From positions 1 to 34,173 of the forward strand of contig CADBPF010000114.1 in the NCBI GenBank assembly GCA_902796545.1: a stretch of DNA of 34,173 nt, given 5' to 3'. Under the pieces are notes generated by a model. It saw only the letters and a list, made by a program, of their open reading frames with translations. It was not told where the DNA came from and did no database searches. The position numbers and the translations under genes are program-made. Of the stretch, positions 1 through 34,116 are shown in pieces. The DNA is from an uncultured Ruminococcus sp. Its GTDB lineage: Bacteria > Bacillota > Clostridia > Oscillospirales > SIG627. Every line of letters starts with the position of its first letter. Position 1 is the first letter of the stretch.

Positions 1-2
1 AC

Positions 3-401
3 TACGTGAAGACCACCGTGTACCTGAAGACCATCGGTACCAACGGCACCAACCTGGTCGCCACCATCAACACCACCTCGGGCGGCAGCGCGGATCTCGA
101 TCCCTCGCTGCGCGTGCTGCTCGTTGACAAGACCAACAACAAGACCTACATCTACAAGCCGATCACCGGCGCGAGCTATCTGAGCAGCAACACCGCTCTG
201 AGCGCGGCTGACGGCACCAACGACGCCGTCACCACCATCGCGACCAGCGGCACGCAGGTCCTGTTAGCCACCATGACGGCCAACACGGTCTATACCTTCG
301 ACGTCTACGTCTGGTACGAAGGCGAAGATCCGGAATGCAAGACCGTCAACGCTCAGACCCTCGCGGCGACCAACTTCTCGATCGACTTCGAGATCGCGTA
401 A
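3..401 (+). CDS. 3' part of a SipW-type exported surface/matrix protein (TasA/camelysin-like), 5' end outside window
   Basis: The reading frame is open from the first bases and ends with TAA at 399-401. The GTG at 6 is in frame, but the codon before it is also open and there is no ribosome binding site, so the true start lies to the left. The visible 133 residues are Thr/Asn-rich and β-strand-like. They end in a segment reading VYVWYEGEDPECKTVNA followed by a short strand, NFSIDFEIA. That W-x-E-G-x-D-P-x-C block before a final strand is characteristic of the C termini of SipW-dependent exported proteins of the TasA/camelysin kind. The signal sequence cannot be checked. Three SipW-like signal peptidases follow within 12 kb, which fits this role. 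Function is inferred; the exact family is uncertain. Confidence 0.6.
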   Translation, partial: YVKTTVYLKTIGTNGTNLVATINTTSGGSADLDPSLRVLLVDKTNNKTYIYKPITGASYLSSNTALSAADGTNDAVTTIATSGTQVLLATMTANTVYTFDVYVWYEGEDPECKTVNAQTLAATNFSIDFEIA

Positions 402-798: not shown

Positions 799-1623
799 GT
801 GTACCGCTTGCCGACAAGCAAACAAAAGCATGCGCTCGTATTCTCGGCGATCGGTCTGTTCCTGCTTTTGGTCGTCCTGCTGTTGGCGCTTGCGATGTAT
901 TTTGCCTCCTCGTTCGGCTGGTTTGCTCAAAGCACCCGGGCTGACGCGCAGGATTTAGGCTCGCAGCTGACCGAGGATACCGGCGCGGAGATCCGGGAAT
1001 TCCACGTCTATAAGCGCGACGGGCTCACCCACGGCGCCGCGGAAGTCTCCAACAGCATCCCCGGCGATCCCTTATACTATCAGCAGGTCAGTCTGACCGA
1101 ATACGATACGGTCTTTACCGATCGCAACGTGGACACGCCGATGATCTTCAAGGTCATCATCGACCACGTCAATACGAATTTTGCCGGTCTGACCGTCACG
1201 GTCACCTGCCCCGAGAATACGACGAATTATCTCGACGAAGACAACAATCTCGGCAACTTTTTATCCAATATCTGCGCGATCCGCTGCGGCTACGGCACGG
1301 CGGAACTGAACGCCGAGACCGATCCCGACGAGATCTATTCCGGCGCGGTCGCGCTGTTGGAGAATTCCCAGCCCGGCTCGTTTGCTTCCGTGAACGCCCA
1401 GTATCAGAACACGGGCAAGGTCAACGAATTGACCTTTACGCTCGGGCAATATACCGCGCAAAACGATACGATCACCGTTTATCTCGAGCTCTCCTACAAC
1501 GCCGAGCTCGTGGACGCGTATATCACGCAAAACGGCATTGAGATTACCTCGCAATCCACCGCCGGCAATGATATCCAGGACTTCGTAAACGATCTTTCGG
1601 AGTTCAAGTTTACCTACCAATAA
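799..1623 (+). CDS. Exported protein with SipW-cognate-type signal sequence
   Basis: 274 residues. A basic N terminus (about residues 1-11) leads into a long hydrophobic segment (about 13-37). This ends in ASSFGWFAQSTRADA, which resembles the G-x-[FY]-A-[WY]-F cleavage-region motif of SipW-cognate signal peptides. The rest is a soluble, acidic, β-rich domain rich in Thr and Asn. It contains an acidic DPDE stretch and three cysteines and has no recognisable catalytic motif. Start choice: GTG at 799 is only 3 bases from GGGAAAGG (788-795), while the in-frame TTG at 808 is 12 bases away and equally plausible; either leaves the signal sequence intact. An intrinsic terminator follows at once. It is likely a minor or anchoring subunit of a fibre or matrix. 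I do not recognise a named family beyond the signal type. Confidence 0.7.
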   Translation: MYRLPTSKQKHALVFSAIGLFLLLVVLLLALAMYFASSFGWFAQSTRADAQDLGSQLTEDTGAEIREFHVYKRDGLTHGAAEVSNSIPGDPLYYQQVSLTEYDTVFTDRNVDTPMIFKVIIDHVNTNFAGLTVTVTCPENTTNYLDEDNNLGNFLSNICAIRCGYGTAELNAETDPDEIYSGAVALLENSQPGSFASVNAQYQNTGKVNELTFTLGQYTAQNDTITVYLELSYNAELVDAYITQNGIEITSQSTAGNDIQDFVNDLSEFKFTYQ

Positions 1624-1635
1624 ATCCGGAGAATC

Positions 1636-1657
1636 GCGCATTTTGCGCTTTTCTTTT
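1636..1657 (+). terminator. Intrinsic terminator after the small exported-protein gene
   Basis: GCGCA at 1636-1640 pairs with TGCGC at 1644-1648 around a three-base loop, followed by TTTTCTTTT at 1649-1657. It starts 13 bases after the stop codon of the preceding gene. Confidence 0.65.
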
Positions 1658-1713
1658 ACGCGCGCGCGTGTGCGCGTATAGGCGCGTAGCCGCGCGCGTA
1701 CGCATATGCGCAT
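1658..1713 (+). repeat. Two 23-bp perfect alternating purine-pyrimidine tracts (Z-DNA-prone)
   Basis: Positions 1658-1680 and 1691-1713 each alternate purine and pyrimidine without a break, mostly as CG/CA/TA steps, and are separated by 10 bases. They sit between a terminator (1636-1657) and the ribosome binding site of the giant exported-protein gene. A small hairpin, CCCACC 1735-1740 with GGTGGG 1746-1751, follows. I see no consensus promoter in this interval. Confidence 0.6.
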
Positions 1714-1776
1714 CCAAGTTGGAAGCCCATTTTCCCCACCCGTTCGGTGGGATTCTGTGAAAGGAACCACGTCGGC

Positions 1777-4700
1777 ATGAAAAAAACGCTGCGCATCTCC
1801 CTGATCGCGCTCCTGTGCGCCGCCGCGACGCTGTTCTGCGCCGCGACGGGTGCTTTCGCGTGGCTTGCCGGCATTCTCAATTCGATCCGTCCGACCGCGG
1901 ATAAAGGCTCCGTGATCCAGCAGTATTTCCATTGCGGAAGCGGAACCGAAAACGATCCCTTCGTGATCACCCGTCCGATCCACTACTATCACTTGGTCGA
2001 GCTGTATCAGAGAAGTTCGAGTTTTGCCTCCGGCGGCGATTCCGGGCTTCCCGGCTATTATTTCCAGCTCGGCTACGATCTGGCGGGCAACGGTACGCTG
2101 CAGGTCTATAATTACGACGAATTCGGTCAAACGGACGGCACCTTTACCGATGCGCTCAACATGGCGTATTATTCCGACGACTACGCGCTTTTGCCGATCG
2201 GCACCTCCGACGTGCCCTTCAACGGCACCTTTGACGGCAGCGATCTGACGATCGAAAACCTGAACGTGCGCGCCACCGAAACGATCAGCGGCACGACCTA
2301 CGGCACCTCCGACGTCGGCATTTTCGGTTATCTCGGAGAAGACGCCGACGTGCACAACGCCTATTTTGAAAACGTTTCGATCGACCTTTCCGGCACGAAC
2401 GCTTTGCGCACCGTAACGGGCCATAACACCACGGTCCACGATTCCGATAACGACAGCACGCCCGATCTGGTCTTTGCCGGCTATATCGCCGGCCACGTTT
2501 ACACCACGAGCCGCGTGCAGGACGTTTACGTGAACGATTGCACGCTGTTGGGCGGCGACGCGGCGACCTGCGGCTTCGGCTATTTCGGCTGCGTGGAAGA
2601 CGCCACGACCGGCACGGTCGTGACCCAGCTCGGCAGCGAGGTCGTGACCCTGCGCACCAAGGGAAGCGATGCCGGTTTCGGCGGCAGCGTCGAAATGGAC
2701 AAGCTCTATAACCGCGTACTTTCCGTGCTCCAGGACGCGCGCGCCAACTATACCCGCCTCGGCGCGAACAACTATTACCACTACACCACCGAAGAGCGCG
2801 TGGATATTTACGAGGCGACCGAAGATTCGGAGGAGCGCGTAGAGCGCAGTTATACCGACGCGGGCGCGCTGACCAATCAGCAGCGCGGCTACTTCTCCAC
2901 CAAGGGCGGCAACTACGTGCTGCACAACCGTACCGACACGAACTCGTACCTCTACGTTTCCAGTCTGACCCAAAGCCAGGGCATGACGGTTACCACCTAC
3001 CTGCACAAAAACGAGTTTCTCGACGCGTTTTATATCAAGAGCGGCACAAACTGCCTGTCTTTGACGGATGCGGGCGCGCTCACCAACCAGACCTCCGAGG
3101 ATCAGGCGACGCTGTGGGTCCTGGATGAAAACGACCACCTTTACACGATCCTGGACGGCACCGTAACCTATCTCAACCGCGCGGCAAACGGCACGCTTAC
3201 TACCTCGGCGACCGTTTCCACGACCTGGACGCGCGACGCGCAAAATCGCCTGTCCGTCAGCGTTTCCGGCACGCCGAACTATCTTTCCTACCGCGTGATC
3301 GATCCTCTCGCCGGCTGGACTTTGAGCCCGCACACCGCGACCTATACGATCTCGGACGGCGCCGGTCATTATCTCTCCGGCACGCAAAGCGGCGTATCGA
3401 ACGTGAATACCGCGTCCGCTTCCTCCAAGTGGCTCCAGACGAATCCCGGCGGAAACACCGCGTTTTACGTGACCGAAAACGGCGTCAACTACTATCTCGG
3501 CCTGAACGGCGGCGCGCTTGGGACCTCCACGACCTCCACGACCTGGACGCGCGACTCAAACGGTTATTACGCGACCGTAAACGGCGACAAACTCTATCTT
3601 ACCTACGACAACGGCTGGAAAGCCGTGCCGATCGACTGCTACAAGATCGCGTCCGGCACGCATTATCTGACCGCGACCACAAGCGCCGTTTCCGATTCCA
3701 CGCAGGCAAACAGCGTGGATTGGCTCCTGTCCAACCCGAGCGGCAACACGCAGTTCTACACCCTGATCGGCGGTCAGAAATATTATCTGACCGTGGACAG
3801 CGGCGCGCTCACGGTTTCCGCCACCCCCGCGACCTGGGTCCAAAACGGCGATTCGTATTACCTCTCGCAGAACGGCAAGGATTATTATCTCTGCTACGAG
3901 AACGGCTGGAAGGTCAAGACCCTGACCTACCAGCTCATCAGCGACGGCGCGGGCCACTATCTGAGCCTGACCAATACCGGCGCGATCGAAAACCAGACGC
4001 AAGCAAACGCCACGCATTGGTATTTCACCGCCTCCGGCGCGATCTACGCTTCCGTCGGCAATACGACCTATTATCTGCGCGAAAATAACGGTCTGATCAC
4101 CACGACGCAGGCGTCTTCCGCCACCGAATGGGAAACTTCCGGCGGCAGCTATTACGTCGAGGGCGACACGACGCGCATCTGCATCGGCTATGACAACGGC
4201 TGGAAAACGATCCGCGTCAACAACGGCACGCTGATCGGCGACGGGAACGGCAATTACCTGCGCGTGACCGGCACCGGCACGACCGCCTTTACCTCCACGA
4301 CCAATATCGATCTTGCCACCCGCTTTACCTTCTCGAACACCACCGGCAACCCGCGCGGCACGATCTCCACGACCATCAACACATCGACCGTTTATCTGCG
4401 CAACTACAACAACGGCACCCTGCAGCTCACCACGACCGCGGGCAACGCCACCACCTGGCAGAACGACGGCACGAGCATCTACGCCGCCGGCAACGGCAAC
4501 CGCAGCTATTATCTGATCTTCGACGGTACCTGGCAGCTCTCCACCTCCCGTTCGGACACGAAATACCGCATTTCAACCGGCGGCAACTACATGAGTGCGA
4601 ACGGGACGACCCTTTCCCACACGACCAACGCCTCCGATGCGCTCTTGTTCAACGCAACGAGCGGCACGATCAGCACCGTGATCGACGGCACGACCTATAA

Positions 4701-6459
4701 CCTTTACGCGCCGACGACCAACAACGGCGCCATGTCGCTGAGCGACTCAAATTCCCGTTCCTGGACCACCAACGGTTCACGTCGCTATTTCTCCTCCGGC
4801 GGTATCTTCGGTTGGGGTGCTACAAACTACTATATCCGCTACTATAATGACGCCTGGACCGTGAACACCACGCAGGGCAACGCTTCGGCTCTGACCTTTA
4901 CCGAAGTGGATCTCACCTTCTCCTCCGCGACGCAGACGATCAACGACGCCTACCCCACCCTGACCACTCCGACCGGCCAGGAGCCCGCGCCGGAGATCGA
5001 CGTGCAGGACGCAAGCAGCGCCGTGCCGGAGATCACGGTCGATACCGTGGCCGCGGATCACAGCCTGTCCTGGGTCCCCGAACGGCTGCAGGTCGTGGAA
5101 AAGAGCGTTTCGACCGATCGCACCGGCACCTATTTCCCGTTGCGCGTCGATCTCGACGAAAACGACGACTATCCCGAGGGTTACGCGGTCAGCCCGAAAA
5201 ACACGGGCTATATCGTCTCCGGCGCCTACAGTACCACCTCTTCCTACACTATGAACAATACCCGTTATTATCCGAACGCGGATATCCGTATTTCCGGGTA
5301 CGACATTGAGAATATCGACGCGTCCTACAACGCGAACACGAACAGCTTCACCTCGGTCTATACGGTCAACGCGAGCGGCAACCACGTGCTCACCGACGCG
5401 GAAAAGAACGCCTTTATCGCTTACAGCGTGGCGGAAGAGCAGTTCTTGGAGACTCTGGACGGCGCGGAAAACGTGTACGGCCTGCACTTCATGAACGCGA
5501 AGATCAGCACCCAGCATACGATCCGCGCGCGCGAAGCGACCGTGCTCGGCACGACCTATCAGAACTACGAGCTGCCCGAGGACAGTATCGACTTCAACGT
5601 CATCGAGCGCGGTACGATCAATTTCTTTGCAGGAAGCTATTTTCCCGGCAACAACGCGTTTTTCTCGCTCCATCGCATCTACCGCGATGAAAACGACGAT
5701 ATTTCCGCGATCAAAGAGATCGACCGGGTCTATCAGCACGCGACCCTGAAAGGCGCCAAGCCCTATATCTTCCGTTATACCGACGGCACCTACACCAACG
5801 CGGACGGAACCTACAGCGGTGCGACCTCGCTTGCCCCGGGCTACGATTCCACCGAGGTGTTCAACCGCTCCTGGATCACGAATCCCTCAGGCGTCAGCCA
5901 GGAACACAAGGTCTATTATTTCGAGATCCCCTGTAACAAGGGCGAATACGCGCTCGGCTCCGTCAGCGGCAAGACCGGCGCCTATCTCATGTACCTCGAT
6001 ATCGCTTCCAACGGCGGCGACGCGATCGAATCGATCGTCAGCAGCGAAGGCAACGACGTGACCCAAAGCTTCAACGTGGAATTCCGCAGTGCGCCGGATA
6101 CGGTGGATCACTCCATCTTCCAGTTCGCGATCGACGCGCCCGACGGCACGGATCCGAGCACCTTTTCCTGCAACGTGGTCTTCGACAAGAGCCAGACCGG
6201 GAACGGCAGTTATCCGTCGGGGCTTTATACGCTGACGATCGTGAACCATTCTAATGCGGATCTCACGCTTTATACCTTCCTCTGCGACAACGACAACGAT
6301 CCGCTGAACGATTTCCCCTACGCCTATCGGGTCGTTTACACCAACGCCACGCAGACGGCAACGATCATCCCCACCCTCTTTGAAAACGATTACTGGAAGT
6401 CGGTCGCGGGCTTCACGATCCCCGCAACGGGTACCGCCTACGAGGTCACCTATTCCTGA
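1777..6459 (+). CDS. Giant exported surface protein with six tandem ~100-residue modules
   Basis: 1560 residues starting at ATG 1777, after GAAAGG (1759-1764). This start gives a clean signal sequence: MKK, a hydrophobic core, then TGAFAWLAG, a SipW-cognate-like motif. An earlier in-frame start at 1747 would bury it. Residues ~54-270 resemble GLUG-motif/β-helix proteins (GSGTENDPFVI, then repeated F-G-Y-x-G and N-A-x-F-x-N-V blocks). Residues ~418-1028 hold six modules, each ending in a G-W or D-N-G-W-K motif with Trp at about 514, 614, 711, 809, 919 and 1027. A Pro/Glu linker (~1050-1100) leads to a unique β-rich C-terminal region with no LPxTG or membrane anchor. It overlaps the next signal-peptidase gene by one base. 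I infer a surface adhesin or matrix component; ligand unknown. Confidence 0.75.
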   Translation: MKKTLRISLIALLCAAATLFCAATGAFAWLAGILNSIRPTADKGSVIQQYFHCGSGTENDPFVITRPIHYYHLVELYQRSSSFASGGDSGLPGYYFQLGYDLAGNGTLQVYNYDEFGQTDGTFTDALNMAYYSDDYALLPIGTSDVPFNGTFDGSDLTIENLNVRATETISGTTYGTSDVGIFGYLGEDADVHNAYFENVSIDLSGTNALRTVTGHNTTVHDSDNDSTPDLVFAGYIAGHVYTTSRVQDVYVNDCTLLGGDAATCGFGYFGCVEDATTGTVVTQLGSEVVTLRTKGSDAGFGGSVEMDKLYNRVLSVLQDARANYTRLGANNYYHYTTEERVDIYEATEDSEERVERSYTDAGALTNQQRGYFSTKGGNYVLHNRTDTNSYLYVSSLTQSQGMTVTTYLHKNEFLDAFYIKSGTNCLSLTDAGALTNQTSEDQATLWVLDENDHLYTILDGTVTYLNRAANGTLTTSATVSTTWTRDAQNRLSVSVSGTPNYLSYRVIDPLAGWTLSPHTATYTISDGAGHYLSGTQSGVSNVNTASASSKWLQTNPGGNTAFYVTENGVNYYLGLNGGALGTSTTSTTWTRDSNGYYATVNGDKLYLTYDNGWKAVPIDCYKIASGTHYLTATTSAVSDSTQANSVDWLLSNPSGNTQFYTLIGGQKYYLTVDSGALTVSATPATWVQNGDSYYLSQNGKDYYLCYENGWKVKTLTYQLISDGAGHYLSLTNTGAIENQTQANATHWYFTASGAIYASVGNTTYYLRENNGLITTTQASSATEWETSGGSYYVEGDTTRICIGYDNGWKTIRVNNGTLIGDGNGNYLRVTGTGTTAFTSTTNIDLATRFTFSNTTGNPRGTISTTINTSTVYLRNYNNGTLQLTTTAGNATTWQNDGTSIYAAGNGNRSYYLIFDGTWQLSTSRSDTKYRISTGGNYMSANGTTLSHTTNASDALLFNATSGTISTVIDGTTYNLYAPTTNNGAMSLSDSNSRSWTTNGSRRYFSSGGIFGWGATNYYIRYYNDAWTVNTTQGNASALTFTEVDLTFSSATQTINDAYPTLTTPTGQEPAPEIDVQDASSAVPEITVDTVAADHSLSWVPERLQVVEKSVSTDRTGTYFPLRVDLDENDDYPEGYAVSPKNTGYIVSGAYSTTSSYTMNNTRYYPNADIRISGYDIENIDASYNANTNSFTSVYTVNASGNHVLTDAEKNAFIAYSVAEEQFLETLDGAENVYGLHFMNAKISTQHTIRAREATVLGTTYQNYELPEDSIDFNVIERGTINFFAGSYFPGNNAFFSLHRIYRDENDDISAIKEIDRVYQHATLKGAKPYIFRYTDGTYTNADGTYSGATSLAPGYDSTEVFNRSWITNPSGVSQEHKVYYFEIPCNKGEYALGSVSGKTGAYLMYLDIASNGGDAIESIVSSEGNDVTQSFNVEFRSAPDTVDHSIFQFAIDAPDGTDPSTFSCNVVFDKSQTGNGSYPSGLYTLTIVNHSNADLTLYTFLCDNDNDPLNDFPYAYRVVYTNATQTATIIPTLFENDYWKSVAGFTIPATGTAYEVTYS
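3028..4860 (+). repeat. Six tandem ~97-110-residue protein modules, each with an apparent three-part substructure
   Basis: Modules begin near residues 418, 522, 618, 716, 812 and 927 with a Y-x-I-[SA]-x-G-x-x-Y-L-[ST] type strand. Each continues through a W-L/W-x block and a Y-Y-L block, then closes with [YF]-[DE]-N-G-W-K or a variant. Spacing between the closing Trp residues is 100, 97, 98, 110 and 108. Three Y-L/W blocks per module suggest a β-trefoil-like carbohydrate-binding fold, but this is inference from spacing only. Module 6 is the most divergent. Confidence 0.65.
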
Positions 6460-7232
6460 TGCGAAAGACCGACATCATCAAACGCCCCGCCCACCGCGCC
6501 GCAAGCGTTTTGAACGCCGTCGTTTGTATCCTGTTCGGCGTTCTGATCCTTTGCGTTGTCGCCGTGGGCGTGTTCGTTTTACTCTTCTCGAAAAACGGAC
6601 AACCGTTTTTTCTCGCCGACAAAACGGTGTTGTGGATCCTGACCGACTCCATGGCGGACGAGATCCCCGAAAACACCTTTATCCTCGCGCAAAAGGTCGA
6701 TCCGGACGAGATCGAACCGGGCGACGTGATCACCTTTATTTCCGATGATCCGGACTTAAACGGCGCGCGCAACACGCACAGAGTCCTCAAGATCAGCGAG
6801 GACCGGAGCCTGTTTTATACGAAAGGCGATCACAACGCCGTTGCCGACCGGTATCCCGCCCGCGCCGAAAACGTGCTCTGCCGCTACGAAAGCAAGATCG
6901 ACTGGCTCACCACCGTCGGCAGACTGTTCGTAAATAAGACCGGACCGATCATCTATTTTGCCGCCGTAATGATCCTTTTGGATCTCTTCCTCTTCCCGCT
7001 CTTTTACGGGCTGATCCGCAGCAAAAAGGAAAAACTCGCCCGCGAAAAGCAATCGGCGCTGGAAGACGCGGTCAAAGCGGAGGTGGAGCGCCTGCAGCGC
7101 GAGGCGGCGCAGAGCGCTCAAACGGACGGCGACCAACAACTAAACGCCTCCGCTTCTACCGACTCCCCCGCCGGAAAAGAGCCGCTGCAAAGCGCGCCGG
7201 AAACCGTGCCCGATCCCGGCGAAAACGCCTGA
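6459..7232 (+). CDS. SipW-like (archaeal/ER-type) signal peptidase I, paralogue 1
   Basis: 257 residues. Cleaves signal peptides of exported proteins at the outer face of the membrane. One TM segment (about 20-43) precedes the catalytic domain: Ser64 in TDSM, His107 in NTHRV and Asp124 in TKGDH. The His in place of Lys is the mark of the SipW/ER class. A second hydrophobic segment (about 165-188) is followed by a charged cytoplasmic tail containing ALEDAVKAEVERLQ and an acidic, Pro-rich end. Its ATG overlaps the TGA of the giant exported protein by one base, so translation is probably coupled and that protein is its likely substrate. All catalytic residues are intact. A terminator-like hairpin follows. 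Confidence 0.9.
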   Translation: MRKTDIIKRPAHRAASVLNAVVCILFGVLILCVVAVGVFVLLFSKNGQPFFLADKTVLWILTDSMADEIPENTFILAQKVDPDEIEPGDVITFISDDPDLNGARNTHRVLKISEDRSLFYTKGDHNAVADRYPARAENVLCRYESKIDWLTTVGRLFVNKTGPIIYFAAVMILLDLFLFPLFYGLIRSKKEKLAREKQSALEDAVKAEVERLQREAAQSAQTDGDQQLNASASTDSPAGKEPLQSAPETVPDPGENA

Positions 7233-7250
7233 AAACCGATCGCCTGATCC

Positions 7251-7278
7251 CCGGTTTTTCCGGAAAACCGGTACTTTT
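7251..7278 (+). terminator. Hairpin terminator after signal peptidase 1
   Basis: CCGGTTTT at 7251-7258 pairs with AAAACCGG at 7264-7271, followed by TACTTTT. It lies 18 bases after the stop codon and before the next promoter. The T tract is short, so efficiency may be partial. Confidence 0.5.
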
Positions 7279-7342
7279 GATCCGGATTTGAGCGGAAAAC
7301 CCCGTTTTTTTACGATTTTTTGCTTTTTCTGCACGAAAAAGA

Positions 7343-7371
7343 TTGACAAATCTTTTCTAAATTATTATAAT
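7343..7371 (+). promoter_or_regulatory. Perfect σA-type promoter for signal peptidase 2
   Basis: TTGACA at 7343-7348 and TATAAT at 7366-7371 are both exact consensus hexamers with a 17-base spacer. The predicted start is near 7378, giving a leader of about 90 bases before the ATG at 7469. The surrounding 150 bases are AT-rich compared with the genes. Confidence 0.85.
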
Positions 7372-7468
7372 CTTACATATAGACTCGCATAGGTATGTGC
7401 GGATCTATTGGATTTTTGTTTGTATCAACCATGAAATTTCATTCATTCGCAGAAAGGATGTCTGTTTT

Positions 7469-8392
7469 ATGGACAATCTGGAAACCGTGAAAGAAGAACC
7501 GAAAAAGCCCTCCGGCGTAAAAAAAGTTTTGAACGTGATCCTGAATATTTTTATCTGGATCTTCGTCGTATTTGCCGTGGTGATGACGATTCTTTCCTTT
7601 GCCGCGCAATCCAACTCGGAAGGCGTTCCCTCCTTGTTCGGAAAATGCATTCTCACCGTGAACACCGACTCCATGTCCCCCACCTTCAACGCGGGTGATC
7701 TGTTGATCGCAAACCGCGTCGATCGTGATACCGCAATGAACCTTGAAGTCGGCGATATCATTTCGTTCCGTGCCGATATCAACCACGACGGTCTTGCCGA
7801 TATCAACACCCACCGCATCGTGGAAGTCGTTCCCAACCAGGAAAAAGGCGTTTCCTACAAGACCAAGGGCGACAACATGGAAACCAACCCCATTTCCGAC
7901 CAGGACGCTTCCGGCGGCATCGATCTGGTCCATTGGTCCAGCGTCGTTTGCCAGTATGACGAAGAAAACGGCACGCGTCTGGCCGGCGTCGGCAAGGCGC
8001 TGCAGTTCATCCAGCAGCCCACCGGCTTTTTGGTCTGCATCGTGCTCCCGCTCGTGCTCTTCTTCCTCTATGAATTGTTCAAATTCATCAAGGCGATCAT
8101 CTTCGTGAAGAGCAGCGGCAAGAAACAGATCACCGCCGCGGATGAAGAACTCATCAAGCAGCGCGCGATCCAGGAATTTTTAGCTTCTCAAAAGCAGGAA
8201 CAGACCCCTCCTCCTCCCGCAGCGACCGACGAGACCCCCGCGGACGAGACGCCCGCCGAGGAAACCCCTAAAACGGAGGAAGCGCCCGAGGAACCGGCTT
8301 CTGCAAAAGAGACTCCCGTGGAACAGACTGCCGTCGAAGAGACCGAAGCCGAGCAGGAGGCAAACGAAAAAGACGAGGCGACCGACGCCTGA
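7469..8392 (+). CDS. SipW-like signal peptidase I, paralogue 2, with long acidic cytoplasmic tail
   Basis: 307 residues from ATG 7469, preceded by AGAAAGGA (7451-7458). An upstream in-frame start at 7397 has no ribosome binding site and lies close to the predicted transcription start. One TM segment lies at about 23-45. Catalytic residues are Ser68 (NTDSM), His115 (NTHRIV) and Asp135 (TKGDN). A second TM (about 188-215) is followed by a cytoplasmic tail: a helix around EELIKQRAIQEFLASQ, then a ~75-residue low-complexity tail of Glu, Pro, Thr and Ala. Paralogues 1 and 3 have a comparable helix but shorter tails. It is transcribed from its own consensus promoter and followed by a strong terminator, so it can be expressed apart from the exported-protein genes. 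Confidence 0.9.
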   Translation: MDNLETVKEEPKKPSGVKKVLNVILNIFIWIFVVFAVVMTILSFAAQSNSEGVPSLFGKCILTVNTDSMSPTFNAGDLLIANRVDRDTAMNLEVGDIISFRADINHDGLADINTHRIVEVVPNQEKGVSYKTKGDNMETNPISDQDASGGIDLVHWSSVVCQYDEENGTRLAGVGKALQFIQQPTGFLVCIVLPLVLFFLYELFKFIKAIIFVKSSGKKQITAADEELIKQRAIQEFLASQKQEQTPPPPAATDETPADETPAEETPKTEEAPEEPASAKETPVEQTAVEETEAEQEANEKDEATDA

Positions 8393-8494
8393 CTTTTCAG
8401 TCAAAGCAAGGTTTCCCGATCTGCCGCAGGTGTGATGCATCGTCCATCTCATCCGGTCTGCGGTTGACGTACCAGGGTTCAACTTGTCAGTCGG

Positions 8495-8523
8495 ACCCCG
8501 CATCCGCGGATGCGGGGTCTTTT
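8495..8523 (+). terminator. 24-bp perfect palindrome with T run, terminator after signal peptidase 2
   Basis: Positions 8495-8518 are a perfect palindrome (ACCCCGCATCCG and its complement) followed by CTTTT. It lies 102 bases after the stop. It also sits 40 bases before the start of the next gene, whose RBS is GGAAAGG at 8542-8548. No clear promoter is visible between 8393 and 8557, so the AAA gene may depend on read-through or on an unrecognised promoter. Confidence 0.7.
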
Positions 8524-8557
8524 CAACGAGTAACTACCACCGGAAAGGTTTATACAC

Positions 8558-10144
8558 ATGGATGCATTTTTGAATTGGTTTTTCGCCTTCATGACCACGA
8601 TGTTCAAGGCGGTCTGGGAGAGTATCTCCGGGCTGTTCAGCGGTCTGATCCAGGTTTTCAATTTTCCCCTGTTTTACGATCAGCTGAACCAGTACAAGTC
8701 CGGCTTCAACGTACTCGGCTGGATCCTTTGCGTGCTCACCGTGATCTTCGCTTACGCGATCTGGGCGGCGATCATTGCCTTGATCGTGATCGCGATCCGC
8801 AAGTACGTGCGTTTCAGAAAAACGATCGTCGGCAACGAAGATCTCTTGGAAGAGATCGCGGATCTGCATCGCGACGTGGTCAAGCTGACCGCGGAAAAAG
8901 AGCGGATCCTTGCCATGAAATTGGAGCCGACCGGTCTTTCCTACGCCGATCTTCGTTCGATCTTTGAAGACGAATCCAAACAGCTCGAAGGCACGGTCGC
9001 TGCCGGAACCGCCGCCGCGGGCGGCACCGGCGAAGGCGGCGAAAACGCCGAGGTTCCGGGCGACGGAAAACGCTTCTTCCGTCTGTCCGCCGTGGACGAC
9101 AAGTACACCTACTACGTGCCGCCGGAATACGATCGCAGCATGACGCTTAAAGAGATCTGCGACGATATCCGCAATTTTGCCTGCTCGCGTTCCCGTTTGT
9201 TCTATGAGATCAAGATCATCCGCCTGATGATCGCGGGACTTGCCTCCACGAAGCTGATCCTCTTACAGGGGATTTCCGGCACCGGTAAGACCTCCCTGCC
9301 GTACATGATGGGCAAATACTTCATGAACGACGCCACAATCGCGTCCGTCCAGCCGTCCTGGCGCGACCGCACCGAATTGTTCGGCTATTTCAACGAGTTC
9401 ACCAAGAAGTTCAACGAGACCGAGGTCTTGAAGCGCATTTACGAATCCTCCTTCAACGACGATATCAATATCATCATCCTGGACGAAATGAACATCGCCC
9501 GCGTGGAGTATTACTTTGCGGAAATGCTTTCCATCCTGGAAATGCCGGACGTGAGCGAATGGAAGATCGAACTCGTTCCCTCCACCTGGGATACCGACCC
9601 GAAGCACCTGCAGGACGGCAAATTGCAGATCCCGCAGAACGTCTGGTACATCGGTACCGCCAACAACGACGACTCCACCTTCTCCGTTTCCGATAAGGTT
9701 TACGACCGCGCGCTCGTCATCAACCTGGACAGCAAGGGCGTGCCCTTCGACGCGCCGGACACCGAGCCGAAACACATTTCCTACTCCTACGTGGAATCGC
9801 TCTACTCGAAAGCGATCGAAGAGCATCCGATGAGCGAGGAGCTTTTGGATAAGATCGGCAAGCTCGATATCTACGTGATCGAGAAAATGCGCGTGGCGTT
9901 CGGGAACCGTATCATGAAGCAGCTGCGCATTTTCGTCCCGGTTTACATTGCCTGCGGCGGCGACGAGCTGGAAGCGGTGGACTACATCCTCGCCACCAAG
10001 GTGTTCCGCAAGTTCGAAAGCCTGAACCTCTCGCTGATCCGCGACGAGATCCGCGGTCTCATCGCCTTTTTGGACAACACCTTCGGCAAAGACACGATGA
10101 AAGAGTGCATCGCGTATCTTTTAAGACTGCAAAAAATGTATTAA
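8558..10144 (+). CDS. Membrane-anchored McrB-type AAA+ ATPase
   Basis: 528 residues. An amphipathic N terminus (1-40) leads to a TM region (about 52-80), then a coiled-coil-like segment (about 90-125), a Gly/Ala linker and an AAA+ domain. Walker A is GISGTGKT (from residue 238). The block PSWRDRTELFGYF follows, and Walker B is IIILDEMNIAR with Asp309-Glu310. Sensor 1 lies in IGTANND and an arginine-finger candidate in DRA. The W-x-D-R-x-x-L-x-G-[YF] block and DEMNxAR-x-E-Y-Y-F match the McrB branch of AAA+ proteins rather than classical MoxR. McrB normally drives a McrC nuclease and is soluble; this one is tied to the membrane and followed by a partner without a visible nuclease. It is likely an NTP-driven remodelling motor at the membrane; substrate unknown. 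Confidence 0.8.
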   Translation: MDAFLNWFFAFMTTMFKAVWESISGLFSGLIQVFNFPLFYDQLNQYKSGFNVLGWILCVLTVIFAYAIWAAIIALIVIAIRKYVRFRKTIVGNEDLLEEIADLHRDVVKLTAEKERILAMKLEPTGLSYADLRSIFEDESKQLEGTVAAGTAAAGGTGEGGENAEVPGDGKRFFRLSAVDDKYTYYVPPEYDRSMTLKEICDDIRNFACSRSRLFYEIKIIRLMIAGLASTKLILLQGISGTGKTSLPYMMGKYFMNDATIASVQPSWRDRTELFGYFNEFTKKFNETEVLKRIYESSFNDDINIIILDEMNIARVEYYFAEMLSILEMPDVSEWKIELVPSTWDTDPKHLQDGKLQIPQNVWYIGTANNDDSTFSVSDKVYDRALVINLDSKGVPFDAPDTEPKHISYSYVESLYSKAIEEHPMSEELLDKIGKLDIYVIEKMRVAFGNRIMKQLRIFVPVYIACGGDELEAVDYILATKVFRKFESLNLSLIRDEIRGLIAFLDNTFGKDTMKECIAYLLRLQKMY

Positions 10145-10186
10145 GCGCTTTGACGCTTGGAATCCTTCGGGAAAGGAGGGCACGGT

Positions 10187-11656
10187 ATGGCAGAAGAAAA
10201 GGCCCGCGCGGAAAACAAACCCGTCAGTACCTCGCAGCAGGTTTATGACGATACGGTCTTTTTCATCGACGGGTTGATCCAGAGCTATTCCGCATACAAA
10301 GATATTATCCAGATGATGCGGGACGGCAAGGCGACCATCGAACTGAAAAAACGCTATATGCTCCGCGCGATCGACGAGACCTGGGTCAATATCGTGGAAG
10401 ATACCTTGCCCGCGCTCGATACCCTGATCCGCAACCCCTCCAAGTTCATCGAGGAACGCGAAGAGATCCTGCCCGTGGAGCTTTCCCACAATATCACGAG
10501 CCGTTCCTTACAGCATCTGGCGCAGCACACCAACCTGATCGATAAGATCGAGGGCGATAAGATCACGCCGTCCAAGATCCTGAATATCTTTCGCGAGGAA
10601 ACGATCCAGACCTACGAAAACAAGTTCGTCAATACCCTGCTCAACCGCCTGGCGATCTTCGTGAACCGACGCTATGAGATCGCGCTCAAAGAGGGACAGG
10701 ACGAAAAGACCACCTCGCTCCATTTCAACGAGACCTTCACCCACGGCGACGTGCAGGGCAAAATGCATTTGAGTTTTGAGCTCGTGCAGTCCGCCGAGGG
10801 CGACGAAAAGGTCGAAAAGAATTACGTCAAAACCACCGACCTCTGGCGCCGCGTCGTGCGGCTCAACCAGATCTGCACCGCGTACGCGAGTTCCCCCTTC
10901 GTGCAGGAAATGGGCAAAAGCTATATCCGCCCGCCGGTGATGCGCACCAACGCGATCTTGAAAAACAAGAATCTGCGGCAATGCCTCGCGCTTTGGGAAT
11001 TTATCGAAAGCTACGACAACGCGGGCTACAGTATGCTCGTGGAAGAATCCTTAGAAAAGGTGGACGACAAATACGTGCGCGAACTGTATTCCACGCTCGC
11101 GCTGCAGTATCTGATCTTCCGTTATAACGTCCACAACGAATTCGATCCCGAACAACGGCTCGATTCCCGCATCACGGACGACGTGTTGAAGCCCCGGATC
11201 ATCGATCAGCTGTCCGAGGCAAGCGAGGATCAATACGATCTGACGCTGAATGAAGAGGTCCGCGGCCCGACCCTGCCCGCGCGCACGCGCTACGGTATGC
11301 TCACGCCGGACGACCGGCTGATGCTCTTTGCTTTGAACGTGGCGCTGGACGCCGCGGATATTTTAGAAGGCGAAACGCTCTCCCACGCCGAAATCCCGGA
11401 ACCGGAACCGGACGAGGCGATCCCGCCGGACGCGTACGACGATCGCGTGGAGCCCGAACCCGAACCCGAACCCGAGCCGGAGCCGGAGCCCGAGCCCGAG
11501 CCGCAAACGGAAGAACAAAGCGCGGCTGAAACGGTCTCATCCACTGCGCGGCCCCACAGCCACCGGAAATTTGCCTCTCAAAACGCGCCGCACGCGGCAT
11601 TTTCCATTTCCCGTCCGGTCTATCGGCCGCGGCGAGGCTCACAAAGGCGGTATTGA
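10187..11656 (+). CDS. DUF2357-like partner of the McrB-type ATPase, with Glu-Pro repeat tail
   Basis: 489 residues from ATG 10187 after AAAGGAGG; the open frame begins 30 bases earlier without a better site. It is a soluble α-rich protein. The segment ETIQTYENKFVNTLLNRL and the later NLRQCLALWEFIES resemble DUF2357, the domain found N-terminal to PD-(D/E)XK nucleases in McrC-like partners. I see no D-x-n-[DE]-x-K motif, so the nuclease part seems absent. The C terminus carries nine consecutive Glu-Pro pairs and then a basic, Arg/His-rich tail. It lies 42 bases after the ATPase gene, and signal peptidase 3 starts 2 bases after its stop, so all three are cotranscribed. Family assignment rests on motif resemblance and gene order. 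Confidence 0.6.
   Translation: MAEEKARAENKPVSTSQQVYDDTVFFIDGLIQSYSAYKDIIQMMRDGKATIELKKRYMLRAIDETWVNIVEDTLPALDTLIRNPSKFIEEREEILPVELSHNITSRSLQHLAQHTNLIDKIEGDKITPSKILNIFREETIQTYENKFVNTLLNRLAIFVNRRYEIALKEGQDEKTTSLHFNETFTHGDVQGKMHLSFELVQSAEGDEKVEKNYVKTTDLWRRVVRLNQICTAYASSPFVQEMGKSYIRPPVMRTNAILKNKNLRQCLALWEFIESYDNAGYSMLVEESLEKVDDKYVRELYSTLALQYLIFRYNVHNEFDPEQRLDSRITDDVLKPRIIDQLSEASEDQYDLTLNEEVRGPTLPARTRYGMLTPDDRLMLFALNVALDAADILEGETLSHAEIPEPEPDEAIPPDAYDDRVEPEPEPEPEPEPEPEPEPQTEEQSAAETVSSTARPHSHRKFASQNAPHAAFSISRPVYRPRRGSQRRY
11450..11503 (+). repeat. Nine-unit hexanucleotide repeat encoding (Glu-Pro)9
   Basis: In-frame GAR-CCN units repeat nine times with synonymous variation (GAACCC, GAGCCG, GAGCCC). 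Because the unit is six bases, copy-number changes would alter length without shifting the frame. The rigid, acidic rod links the conserved domain to the basic tail of the DUF2357-like protein. Confidence 0.85.
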
Positions 11657-11658
11657 CG

Positions 11659-12339
11659 ATGAAAAAAGCAAAAAAGACGCCTCTTGCCCGGGTCCTGAAC
11701 GTGATCAGCACGATCGTTCTCATCTTCGCGATCCTGATCTTCGTATTCATCCTGTTTTCCAATCTGCGCGGCGAAATGCTCTTTATCGGGGATCGCGCGC
11801 CCGTTTGGGTCCGCACCGACAGTATGGAGCCGACGATCCCGGCGCAGAGTTACGTGGTGATCCGCAAGGCGGATTCAAGCGAGGTCGCAGTCGGGGACGT
11901 GATCCTCTTTGCTTCCGACGATCCGCGATTGGAGGGCGCGAACAACCTGCACCGCGTCGTGGAGATCGTCGGCGATCACGAGGAATTCGTAACCAAGGGC
12001 GACAATCCGCAGACCAACCCGTTGGCGGACAAACAGACCGCCAAGGCGGAAAAGGTGATCGGGATCTATGAGCGCACCCTGCCCGTCTTGTCCGCGCTCG
12101 TGCGGTTTCTGACCACGCCGATCGGGATCGCGGTCACGCTGTTTGTCTTATTTGCACTCAACCTTCTCTCCTCCCTGCCGGATCTCAAACGCGCCTCTGC
12201 CGAACGCAAAGCCAAAGCTGCCCAAAAGAAACAGGACGAATTGGACGCGCTCGTACAAGCCGAGGTGCAGAAGCTGAAAACCGAGCAAGGCGCCGGAGAA
12301 AGTGAAGCTTCCGACCCGAATCCCGAATCCAAAAAATAG
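11659..12339 (+). CDS. SipW-like signal peptidase I, paralogue 3
   Basis: 226 residues from ATG 11659, after AAAGGCGG (11643-11650), two bases after the previous stop. A TM segment lies at about 13-36. Catalytic residues are Ser55 (RTDSM), His98 (NLHRVV) and Asp115 (TKGDN). A second TM lies at about 150-173. The cytoplasmic tail contains ELDALVQAEVQKLKTE, closely resembling the tail helix of paralogue 1. It is the shortest of the three. Being directly behind the AAA ATPase and DUF2357-like genes, it is the best candidate for a peptidase working physically with that pair. Confidence 0.9.
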   Translation: MKKAKKTPLARVLNVISTIVLIFAILIFVFILFSNLRGEMLFIGDRAPVWVRTDSMEPTIPAQSYVVIRKADSSEVAVGDVILFASDDPRLEGANNLHRVVEIVGDHEEFVTKGDNPQTNPLADKQTAKAEKVIGIYERTLPVLSALVRFLTTPIGIAVTLFVLFALNLLSSLPDLKRASAERKAKAAQKKQDELDALVQAEVQKLKTEQGAGESEASDPNPESKK

Positions 12340-12369
12340 ACGAACTTCCGTTTCAGAAAGGAATCCGCC

Positions 12370-12600
12370 ATGTTTCGTAAATCTAAACTGAAAAAAGAGA
12401 TCAACGCCTGCAAAAAGAAGATCGCTACCCTGGAGCAGAAGCGTTCCCGCTCGCAGGCGGCGCTGGTCAGCGCGATCCTGACGCATCAGGATCCGGACGA
12501 CAACGATCTGGAATTTTTCAATATGTTCACCGAGCAGATCAACAAAGAGCGCGACCGGATGCAGGGACTGACTAAAGAACTGGAAGAGCTGGAAAAATAA
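12370..12600 (+). CDS. Small coiled-coil protein
   Basis: 76 residues with a good ribosome binding site (AGAAAGGA before ATG 12370). Two predicted helices (about 4-40 and 50-76) with heptad spacing of Leu, Ile and Met flank a central DPDDNDLEFF turn. There is no signal sequence or TM segment. It sits 30 bases after signal peptidase 3 and 39 bases before the EAL protein, so it belongs to the same transcript. It is not a family I recognise; an adaptor or oligomerisation factor for the AAA/peptidase group is a guess. Confidence 0.7.
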   Translation: MFRKSKLKKEINACKKKIATLEQKRSRSQAALVSAILTHQDPDDNDLEFFNMFTEQINKERDRMQGLTKELEELEK

Positions 12601-12639
12601 GTACCCAACCGAATTTTTCGCCAAAGGAGCGGCAAACAC

Positions 12640-14946
12640 GTGAAAAAAGTGTGGAAAAACTGGTCGCGTGACGTTCTGATCGCCATGATCAGTCTGGTTT
12701 TTGTCGCCATGATCGTCTGCTGCGTCATCATGCTCACCGGCTATACCGACGAGCTGCACGAGCAGGCGGGCACCAAGGCGTTATTGTTCATCACGGATAC
12801 CTCCGGGTATCTGGACGATTCTCTCAATACTTATCTGTATAAAACGGGATTAGCGGCGGAAAAGCTGAATACTCTGGAAACGGAGAACTTTTTCGAGTTC
12901 TCCCAGGCCCTGCGGGACCTGACTCTGGAGGAGCGCTTTTCAAACGTTTGCTTTTCCCGCTTTTTCAAAGACGGCGTGGAATTCGACACCACCACGAACG
13001 TGGAATATCCGACCTCGGACGAATCCTCGACCGTGGTGCGTCTTTCCAACCGCGGTGAGATCGGCTTTGCCGGGATCCTGACCGACCGGAAGTACAACAT
13101 TACCGTCGCCGCATTCTGCGCGCCGATCAAGGATTGCGAATTTGCGGACAGCATCGTGCTTTACTACCCCGTGGGCGACGTGGTGACGCTTGCCGGCAAC
13201 CAGAAAACCGACTACACCGAAAGCGCACGCACCGTGCTTTTGTGCGCGGCGGACGGCGAGGTCGTGAACGTGGTCGGCGACAGCGACGATTTCGGCGTAC
13301 AGCTCCACGACAACGTGTATCAATTCCTCGCCCGCGAGATCAACGACAAGTCCGTGACGGACAATCTGCGCGACACGATCTTGAAAAACGAGCTCGCCAC
13401 CTATCCCGTGCTGATCGAAAACGAAACGCACATTCTTTCCGTCGGCAGCGCGGGCGGCAAGGACGCGCCGATCTTTCTGATCGGGATTTACCGCGCGATC
13501 GATCTTTACAACGCGGAATATTCTACGGTGAGCACCATTCTGGGCGCGCTGATCATCTTCGTGGTCCTGATGATCTTCTTTGTGATCTACTTCTTCGTGT
13601 CCAGGCGCCGCACGGCGAGGATGCTTTTAACGATCGGCGATATCGACAGCGATCTCGACTGCCCCACTCAAAAGCATTTCGAGCGCGAGAGCGCAACGCT
13701 GATCTCCCGCAACCGCGGATCCATTTTCTCGATCGTCGTGATCGAAATGAATCACTACGATTATATCCGCGAGCACTACGGCGACGAATTCACCAAGCGC
13801 ATCTTACTCTATCTCAAGCTCATCATCACCAATTCCCTGAAGCTAGACGAAACCTACGGCTATATGGGAAGCGGCAGATTCGTGCTGCTGCTGCACGACC
13901 GTGACCGGGACGCGCTCAAGGACCGCATCCAGATCCTTTGCGGTCTTGCCCACAACTACCGCGCCGATATGCCGCAGGGCTATCATATCGAGCTCGTCGG
14001 CGGCATCTACGAGGAGCGGCAGAACGTTACAAACGACGTCGGCAAGATGATCGATCTTGCGCTGGAAGCGAAAAACGCGCTCAATATGGAGACCGATTTC
14101 GGCTCCTTCCGCTTCTTCAGCGAGCACTTGAAGGAGCGCCGCAGTTTGAACGAATACATTGAAATGAACATGAACTCCGCTTTGGAGAACAAGCATTTCC
14201 GCGTATTCTACCAGCCGAAGTACAATATCCCCAACGACCGTCCGGACAGCTGCGAGGCGCTCGTGCGCTGGTATAACCCGGAATGGGACGAATATATGCG
14301 CCCCGGCGAATTCATGCCGCTGTTCGAGGCAAACGGCTTTATCGTGAAGCTCGATAAATACGTGTATGAACAGGTCTGCACCTATATCGAGGAATCCGTC
14401 CTGCACGGCGAGGTGCTCTACCCCGTGAGCGTCAACGTTTCAAGGATCACCGCGCTGCAAAAGGACTTTTTGGATTACTATATCTCCGTGAAGAAAAAGC
14501 ACAACATCGCCGACCGCTTTATCACGCTGGAGTTCACGGAAAGCGCCGCCTACGAGAATTACGAGGGCCTGCGCGATACCGTCAACGCCCTGCACCAGAA
14601 CGGCTTCAAGTGCTCGATCGACGACTTCGGAACCGGCTATTCCTCTTACAACATCCTAAAAGAGATCCCGATGGACGAGATCAAGCTGGATCGCTTCTTC
14701 ATGCTGCAGGGGCTTTCCGGCGAGCGCGATATGAAGATTTTGGAAAGCGTGATCAAGATTGCGCGCGAACTCAATATGAAGGTCGTGCAGGAGGGCGTGG
14801 AAACGCCGGAGCAGTTGGAGCTCCTGCGGCGGCTCGGCTGTCACGTGATCCAAGGTTACTATTATTCCAAACCGCTCGCGCAGTCCGACTACGTGACCTT
14901 TATCACCGAGCATTTCAAGAATTCCGATTTCGTAAACCGCCATTGA
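12640..14946 (+). CDS. Membrane-bound EAL cyclic-di-GMP phosphodiesterase with degenerate GGDEF domain
   Basis: 768 residues from GTG 12640, 10 bases after AAAGGAG. TM1 lies at about 9-31, then comes an extracytoplasmic sensor region (about 35-298) that may be Cache-like, TM2 at about 300-321, a GGDEF-type domain and an EAL domain. The GGDEF signature is GSGRF (410-414), so cyclase activity is unlikely. The EAL domain keeps EALVRW (Glu539), N in SVNVSR, E in EFTES, DDFGTGYSS (Asp661-Asp662), K in EIKLDR and QEGVE, the residues known to bind metal and substrate. It should therefore hydrolyse c-di-GMP. As last gene of the export locus it may tie fibre or matrix production to c-di-GMP. A strong terminator follows. 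Confidence 0.9.
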   Translation: MKKVWKNWSRDVLIAMISLVFVAMIVCCVIMLTGYTDELHEQAGTKALLFITDTSGYLDDSLNTYLYKTGLAAEKLNTLETENFFEFSQALRDLTLEERFSNVCFSRFFKDGVEFDTTTNVEYPTSDESSTVVRLSNRGEIGFAGILTDRKYNITVAAFCAPIKDCEFADSIVLYYPVGDVVTLAGNQKTDYTESARTVLLCAADGEVVNVVGDSDDFGVQLHDNVYQFLAREINDKSVTDNLRDTILKNELATYPVLIENETHILSVGSAGGKDAPIFLIGIYRAIDLYNAEYSTVSTILGALIIFVVLMIFFVIYFFVSRRRTARMLLTIGDIDSDLDCPTQKHFERESATLISRNRGSIFSIVVIEMNHYDYIREHYGDEFTKRILLYLKLIITNSLKLDETYGYMGSGRFVLLLHDRDRDALKDRIQILCGLAHNYRADMPQGYHIELVGGIYEERQNVTNDVGKMIDLALEAKNALNMETDFGSFRFFSEHLKERRSLNEYIEMNMNSALENKHFRVFYQPKYNIPNDRPDSCEALVRWYNPEWDEYMRPGEFMPLFEANGFIVKLDKYVYEQVCTYIEESVLHGEVLYPVSVNVSRITALQKDFLDYYISVKKKHNIADRFITLEFTESAAYENYEGLRDTVNALHQNGFKCSIDDFGTGYSSYNILKEIPMDEIKLDRFFMLQGLSGERDMKILESVIKIARELNMKVVQEGVETPEQLELLRRLGCHVIQGYYYSKPLAQSDYVTFITEHFKNSDFVNRH

Positions 14947-14960
14947 GCGATAAAAAGAAT

Positions 14961-14991
14961 AAAGATCCCCCGGCAAAGCCGGGGGATCTTT
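14961..14991. terminator. Bidirectional terminator between convergent operons
   Basis: A perfect 14-bp stem pairs 14961-14974 (AAAGATCCCCCGGC) with 14978-14991 around an AAA loop. A-rich sequence on the left and ATTTTACTT on the right supply T runs in both directions. It lies 15 bases after the EAL gene and 13 bases after the end of the desulfoferrodoxin gene. Confidence 0.9.
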
Positions 14992-15003
14992 ATTTTACTT
15001 ACT

Positions 15004-30654: not shown

Positions 30655-30697
30655 AAAAAGCGCCCCGAAGATTCAGCGGACGCGGAATTCTTCGGGG
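30655..30697 (-). terminator. Terminator overlapping the end of the first capA-like gene
   Basis: On the minus strand CCCCGAAGA (30697-30689) pairs with TCTTCGGGG (30671-30663), followed by CGCTTTTTCG with five T (30659-30655). The stop codon of the gene lies in the loop, so a terminating ribosome would sit on the stem. Confidence 0.75.
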
Positions 30698-34065: not shown

Positions 34066-34086
34066 GCCGATCCCTCCGTACGTGGA

Positions 34087-34116
34087 AAGTATCGGCAAGT
34101 ACAAAAACTCTCATAC
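34087..34116 (-). promoter_or_regulatory. Possible σG/σF-type promoter of sigG
   Basis: On the minus strand GTATG (34116-34112), an 18-base spacer and GATACTT (34093-34087) resemble the forespore consensus GHATR-N18-CATHHTA. The first element matches fully and the second at 5 of 7 positions. It lies 22 bases before the sigG start codon and beyond the upstream terminator. No σA promoter is seen here. Confidence 0.45.

Follow-up and report, generated by a model that had tools for sequence, protein, structure and literature searches.

The window analysed here is an entire contig of 34,173 nucleotides (CADBPF010000114.1, C114 below) from the 1.4 Mb, 97% complete genome of an uncultured Ruminococcus sp. 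Its first 14,946 nucleotides carry, in order on the plus strand, the tail of an exported-protein gene (exA), two further exported-protein genes (exB and exC), two SipW-type signal peptidases (Sip1 and Sip2), an McrB-like AAA+ protein, a DUF2357 protein, a third peptidase (Sip3), a coiled-coil protein (CC) and a GGDEF/EAL protein (Table 1). That this block belongs to a surface-export island is highly probable. Our more specific reading, to which we assign a probability of roughly 0.55, is that it represents the 3′ part of a chromosomal, CoCoPALM-type island for the export of surface fibres that is activated by cyclic di-GMP (c-di-GMP), with the AAA/DUF2357 pair engaging the tails of the peptidases; the surface proteins themselves are probably fibres. 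The combination of peptidases, exported proteins, AAA, DUF2357, coiled-coil and EAL proteins pointed out in a preliminary description of this DNA is real and recurs in more than 100 loci, and the gene arrangement is therefore far beyond chance.

The same description presented the association as a candidate new system, a claim that does not hold: AAA, McrC and signal peptidase genes were already linked under the name CoCoPALM by Bell et al. in eLife in 2024 (PMC11090510). That account takes up two sentences, gives no substrates, regulation, function or experiments for the class, and handles it within restriction systems. It defines NxD GTPases by NxD followed by E or D, likens their N-terminal domain to FtsB, and treats a coiled coil fused to McrC as usual, not universal, in CoCoPALM. 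A literature search found the term in no other relevant paper, and queries on SipW with AAA proteins, McrB with pili and SipW-like proteins in Clostridia likewise returned only this study as relevant. The islands described here resemble CoCoPALM in their NxD McrB-like GTPase, its N-terminal transmembrane (TM)/coiled-coil region, the DUF2357 McrC homologue and the signal peptidases. The window reads TANNDDSTF at the NxD site (NNDD alone also fits NxxD) and outgroups read TANRDEST or TVNMDETT. A TM segment followed by a helix corresponds in layout to the FtsB-like region, and adjacent DUF2357 (PF09823, 110/110 loci) and signal-peptidase-family genes complete the match. The coiled coil on McrC is found in Ruminococcus-type partners, whereas the partner in the window has an acidic EP-repeat tail instead. 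Beyond the naming, our analysis adds a substrate class, a c-di-GMP circuit with its riboswitch, peptidase tail helices, a clade boundary, three layouts and a set of SipW-free relatives.

Linkage of the AAA/DUF2357 pair to export genes

We scanned 84,980 species genomes and, of the 464 relatives recovered, kept the best 80; as a control for bias we also sampled 398 (phylum-wide), 345 (order-wide) and 292 (class-wide) genomes and retrieved 80 regions, each at most 20 kb long. Five AAA cores are common to both locus sets, and the counts are slightly redundant. We distinguish full-length, TM-anchored AAAs (group I), AAA-DUF2357-AAA tandems and similar TM-anchored forms (group II), and distant relatives without a TM segment (group III). 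SipW-type peptidases accompany group I in all 78 loci with 3 kb or more of flanking sequence on each side, as well as in 33/33 group I loci of the order- and class-wide samples, but were found near none of the group II (0/12) or group III (0/35) AAAs. DUF2357 lies directly downstream of the group I AAA in 110/110 cases, 90 of 98 loci have a peptidase no more than 2 kb upstream, and all 59 sampled group I AAAs have an N-terminal TM segment. In a quick tree of AAA cores, group I forms one clade (SH-aLRT support 98) and group III one side of a branch (100), with group II between them; outgroup branches are long and the deeper joins unsure. The linked loci span records from Clostridia, Ruminococcus, Bacilli and Acholeplasmatales. 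An artefact of keeping the 80 best hits was considered and is ruled out by the order- and class-wide samples together with the outgroup loci.

Since linkage to SipW-type peptidases is total within the clade and absent outside it, the pair belongs with export. The preliminary description had named homologues occurring mostly without such peptidases as the finding that would speak against its proposal, and the 78/78 count is the opposite. Its statement that the pair serves export, peptidase loading or assembly and not restriction stands as to the association, given this linkage and the lack of a nuclease; the driving role it implied is plausible, because the peptidases carry tail helices (see below).

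Three layouts recur. In the window type (layout A), a cyclase, a dead-EAL protein, a signal-anchor protein and an AWF protein, with or without exB and exC, precede Sip-AAA-DUF2357-Sip-CC-GGDEF/EAL. In the Ruminococcus type (layout B), three exported proteins are followed by Sip, AAA, a coiled-coil DUF2357 protein, large exported proteins and a further Sip. In layout C (records from Bacilli, Erysipelotrichaceae and Acholeplasmatales), AAA-DUF2357-Sip is surrounded by several Sips together with small exported proteins.

The AAA has intact catalytic motifs (Walker A GISGTGKT, Walker B ILDEMN and sensor-1 TANNDDSTF), and its N-terminal TM segment is followed by a EEIADLHRDVVKLTAEKER-type helix. 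Its shared ancestry with McrB (PDB 6hz4, 2.6e-6) and its match to the PADLOC defence-candidate model PDC-M26A (9.5e-36), together with the placement of the class within restriction systems by its authors (PMC11090510), would suit an NxD Type IV restriction-like system, a CoCoNuT relative in which the surface proteins act as phage sensor or barrier. We consider this quite unlikely. Like McrBC (E. coli McrB, PDB 6hz4/6ut6), the pair joins an McrB-like AAA core to a DUF2357 activator (7.6e-10 against PF09823, above the Pfam cut-off), but it differs in its membrane anchor, in NxD replacing NxxD, and in lacking a DNA-binding domain and a PD-(D/E)xK nuclease: Pfam detected no modified-DNA-binding domain on the AAA, whose N-terminal part is a membrane segment, and Pfam and NCBIfam no nuclease domain in the DUF2357 protein; 24/110 partners fall below 440 aa (amino acids) and are essentially the core alone. 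CoCoNuTs share the NxD GTPase and McrC-like partner but have predicted RNA-binding or nuclease parts (PMC11090510), and the distant group III AAAs are without SipW peptidases. A defensive role also fits poorly with the obligate peptidases and exported substrates and with the c-di-GMP riboswitch and enzymes. A mobile or defence island was also rejected, the neighbours in the window being housekeeping genes (suf, lysS as judged from its translation, M29 and S41), and our search found no full-length homologue in plasmids or phages.

The pair might alternatively be a scaffold or positional switch and not a motor, with NTP-dependent polymerisation of the AAA, the DUF2357 coiled coil and CC marking the site of peptidase and fibre, by a logic like that of FtsB or crescentin. 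Ruminococcus-type DUF2357 proteins do have long C-terminal coiled coils (matching Rod_CreS), DUF2357 lengths in the islands range from 360 to 1736 aa, a separate CC protein is present, and the FtsB comparison of Bell et al. (PMC11090510) points the same way. However, the catalytic motifs of the AAA are strictly conserved, as in a hydrolysing machine, and Bacilli-type DUF2357 proteins of about 370 aa are without extensions. We regard a scaffold as a serious but unlikely alternative. At the other extreme of length, one locus encodes the 1736-aa DUF2357 protein (L048:11578-16788), and the C-terminal extension in this family runs from 0 to more than 1300 aa.

Six SipW-free regions (L155, L157, L158, L160, L161 and L165) have a DUF2357 gene between two TM-anchored AAA genes. 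Such AAA-DUF2357-AAA regions adjoin genes for exported single-TM proteins of very large size, several of which contain a transglutaminase core; in the L159 region, DUF2357 was not detected. This set could represent another surface-protein machine of common origin. Because these TM-anchored relatives adjoin transglutaminase surface proteins without SipW, the job of AAA/DUF2357 is probably general surface-protein handling, not peptidase loading alone. They would also suit a quality-control extractor that removes signal-anchor proteins left unprocessed, or spent signal peptides, from the membrane, as would the position of a cytoplasmic AAA next to the membrane and the long basic cytoplasmic N-tails of some substrates. 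We judge this improbable, as the islands have no protease partner and McrB-type AAAs are not known to act as unfoldases.

Peptidase tails and exported substrates

Sip1, Sip2 and Sip3 score 60–73 bits against TIGR02228 (S26B archaeal/SipW-type; cut-off 51.85) and are the only peptidases above that cut-off in the genome, where two further S26 matches are ordinary leader peptidases with far stronger PF10502 scores. Against the SipW equivalog NF046067 they reach 52–84 bits, below the curated cut-off of 190, and by these profiles they are SipW-like, not SipW orthologues. The catalytic Ser (TDSM), His (THR or LHR) and Asp (KGD) proposed previously are present by eye in all three. After the second TM segment, island peptidases carry long cytoplasmic tails. 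In those directly upstream of the AAA (class U), the tail forms a helix with the consensus ~I-T-x-E-D-E-E-x-I-K-x-R-A-I-E-E-Y-L (Glu 88%, Tyr 73%); 65 of 99 such peptidases have a strict version of it, against a shuffle expectation of 0.16 across all tails. Peptidases after DUF2357 share a different helix, ~D-E-L-V-K-E-E-I-E-R-L-K. Neither motif was found in 22 control SipW-type loci from genomes without the AAA, where tails are mostly short; shuffles and controls thus rule out that class-U tails are random charged tails. The AAA TM segment is followed by RKYVRFRK and the peptidase tails start with K/R, a positive-inside pattern which places both the AAA and the tails in the cytoplasm. We hypothesize that the tails are docking sites for AAA/DUF2357.

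Exported proteins of the islands form a distinct class of 173 genes of the form (S/T)xAWF...WxEGxDxxC. Open reading frames (ORFs) in which (S/T)x(A/S)W(F/L/I) follows a hydrophobic segment number 11.2 per 100 kb in islands versus 2.7 in group II and 0.49 in group III regions, and the WxEGxDxxC-type C-terminal motif occurs in 122 island genes versus none in outgroup loci. A second type of substrate keeps a long basic cytoplasmic N-tail ahead of its TM segment. No Pfam or NCBIfam family was found for the island substrates. The SipW-cognate-type signals of the preliminary description agree with the AWF/GWF/AWL motif and with adjacency; the corresponding model, TIGR04088, matches 3 of 44 island proteins, weakly, and misses exB and exC, and the signal class is therefore based on the motif.

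The S26B peptidase beside its own substrates and the AWF/AAF-type cleavage region recall SipW-TapA-TasA of B. subtilis and the sipW-bsaABCRSD matrix-fibre operon of C. perfringens, in which BsaA is under a two-component system (PMC7395162). Unlike the islands, these systems have one peptidase and no AAA/DUF2357. The FxAGT continuation appears in 1/173 island genes. By contrast, most substrates encoded next to control SipW peptidases have an FTAGT-type start (e.g., MAWFTAEADVTAAEFTAGT), and the control substrates lack WxEGxDxxC; together with the absence of a Pfam match, this separates the island proteins from TasA, camelysin and BsaA. They look SipW-processed, judging from these motifs, but not like plain TasA/BsaA. 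As an observation on exC, its ORF (1747-6459) holds repeats of about 97 aa (YLxYxNGWK ... TTW) with a sub-threshold Fascin/beta-trefoil-like match.

The c-di-GMP circuit at the island start

Position 1 of the window is a contig edge inside exA, and the island begins upstream of it. Another contig of this genome, C106, ends with genes for a membrane protein with GGDEF, the dead-EAL protein and a signal-anchor protein, and then the N-terminus of an AWF protein (MKKLIPAICLLLVSAVLLGASTFAWFSANTKV), which is of the same family as the gene within which the window starts. The two contig ends share no sequence overlap; the conserved gene order in relatives leads us to infer that the island is split inside exA across C106 and C114.

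Directly ahead of the dead-EAL gene, outside the window, lies a c-di-GMP-I riboswitch (RF01051, L213:6717-6794) scoring 57.8 bits against an Rfam cut-off of 35, and Rfam places one at the same site in 5 of 6 other layout A loci. A model built from these riboswitches detected 33 copies across the 95 sources that contain islands, versus 1 in 47 outgroup loci, and 15 of 16 dead-EAL loci have one. In 25 of the 28 aptamers checked, the 5′ arm of an intrinsic terminator starts 5–18 nucleotides inside the aptamer, with a supporting fold; the arms, typically AGCCAGTTGCA...TGCAACTGGCT-TTTTT, re-use the aptamer 3′ strand. Ligand-bound aptamer and terminator should therefore be mutually exclusive, which predicts an ON switch, a polarity that we consider likely from this architecture. 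As in other c-di-GMP-I regulons, an aptamer above the gathering score stands ahead of a surface-protein operon; here, the operon controlled is an McrBC-like/SipW island and the terminator shares the aptamer strand. GGDEF is intact in the cyclase and degenerate in the terminal protein, whose EAL domain is intact; both EAL motifs are missing from the dead-EAL protein. Riboswitch, cyclase and phosphodiesterase bear out the c-di-GMP input suggested earlier, and we are confident that c-di-GMP regulates the island.

Some relatives have several aptamers. In one, three c-di-GMP-I riboswitches (L048: 6346-6420, 9037-9110 and 19906-19980) precede the dead-EAL, Sip2 and exB units, and tandem aptamers, most with their own terminator, precede the first island gene in four others (L019:4930-5135, L032:5416-5613, L123 and L126).

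Window features and proposed mechanism

The ORF positions given previously were confirmed, and the CC ORF and GGDEF/EAL protein are genuine; likely ATG start codons lie at 1777 (exC), 7469 (Sip2), 10187 (DUF2357) and 11659 (Sip3). The peptidases had been described as interleaved with exported proteins, but the exported-protein genes come before them.

Table 1 Features of the island portion of the window.
Feature	Position	Strand	Remarks
exA, C-terminal portion of SipW-type exported protein	1..401	+	WYEGEDPEC C-terminal motif common to the substrate class
exB, exported protein, signal end SSFGWFAQS	799..1623	+	homologues in L026, L043, L048, L053
exC, large exported repeat protein, ~1560 aa, signal ATGAFAWLAG	1777..6459	+	~97-aa beta-type repeats
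Sip1, S26B/SipW-type signal peptidase, cytoplasmic tail helix	6459..7232	+	start overlaps exC stop
Sigma-A-type promoter, perfect TTGACA-17-TATAAT, ahead of Sip2	7343..7371	+	0 expected by chance (shuffles)
Sip2, S26B/SipW-type peptidase, class U (immediately upstream of AAA)	7469..8392	+	tail helix ITAADEELIKQRAIQEFLASQ
Membrane-anchored NxD McrB-like AAA+ (GTPase/ATPase)	8558..10144	+	motifs, N-terminal TM
DUF2357/McrC N-domain protein without nuclease	10187..11656	+	acidic EP-repeat C-terminal extension
Sip3, S26B/SipW-type peptidase, class D (downstream of DUF2357)	11659..12339	+	tail helix ELDALVQAEVQKLK
CC, coiled-coil protein, 76 aa	12370..12600	+	family in 17 loci by clustering
Membrane protein, degenerate GGDEF (GSGRF) and intact EAL, predicted c-di-GMP phosphodiesterase	12640..14946	+	EAL 1.5e-61
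Intrinsic terminator, strong, bidirectional, closes island	14956..14996	.	–

Elsewhere in the window, an MBOAT O-acyltransferase is encoded on the minus strand (17196-18772) in two overlapping frames (17196-17981 and 17966-18772), either through a frameshift or assembly error or because it is a pseudogene; an SGNH/GDSL-like protein comes next. Two neighbouring CapA-like (PGA_cap) poly-gamma-glutamate-type lipoprotein genes (30673-33197, minus strand; Pfam search covering the first) are followed by a sigma-70-family factor (33262-34104), by eye like sporulation SigF/SigG.

In the mechanism that we propose, the membrane cyclase beside the island would make c-di-GMP, which at high levels would bind the riboswitch before the first gene, block the terminator and allow the operon to be transcribed. 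Signal-anchored (S/T)xAWF/WxEGxDxxC substrates and large repeat proteins would pass through Sec and be cut by the island SipW-type peptidases. On the cytoplasmic side, a hexamer of the membrane-anchored NxD McrB-like AAA, activated by the McrC-like DUF2357 protein, would grip the peptidase tail helices, the N-terminal tails of signal-anchor substrates that are uncleaved, or both, and nucleoside triphosphate (NTP) hydrolysis would control or power substrate hand-over and fibre assembly. The terminal EAL protein would degrade c-di-GMP and close the loop. That the AAA acts on peptidase or substrate as a motor is possible, at somewhat less than even odds; the full picture, a McrB/McrC restriction-type machine turned into a membrane-bound, NTP-driven fibre assembly motor docked on peptidase tails and switched on by the c-di-GMP riboswitch, is more tentative still.

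Several observations weigh against our overall reading. SipW-type peptidases occur without any AAA in many genomes, and those of B. subtilis and C. perfringens work without one (PMC7395162), so the AAA is not required for SipW cleavage as such. The tail motif is missing in about a third of class-U peptidases and in layout C. Riboswitch and EAL parts are confined to layout A, with none in Ruminococcus- or Bacilli-type islands, and c-di-GMP control is therefore not universal among islands. The adjacency of C106 and C114 is itself deduced from relatives. Structure models are weak for the DUF2357 protein (pLDDT 64) and for a substrate (pLDDT 51, too weak to name a fold), neither with a significant fold match, and profile searches of both against PDB returned nothing meaningful. 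Peptidases and operons (SipW/TasA, sipW-bsaA) that need no AAA would also suit an ordinary SipW/TasA-type matrix operon lying by chance beside an unrelated McrB-like pair. This is very improbable given total linkage in more than 100 loci across Clostridia, Ruminococcus, Bacilli and Acholeplasmatales records, a substrate class unlike TasA/BsaA, and peptidase tails that differ from those of controls.

If the picture of an assembly motor is true, the islands would constitute a secretion and assembly system without a known mechanistic counterpart. The analysis gives the named but uncharacterised CoCoPALM class a concrete, testable role, with substrates, peptidases, a regulator and likely docking signals. 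Our data suggest that bacteria of the gut and rumen (Clostridia, Ruminococcus and Bacilli) have re-used a restriction machine to build the cell surface, and they tie a surface apparatus of these bacteria to c-di-GMP signalling. Annotation pipelines that label the pair as McrBC-like or as anti-phage defence would be misled.

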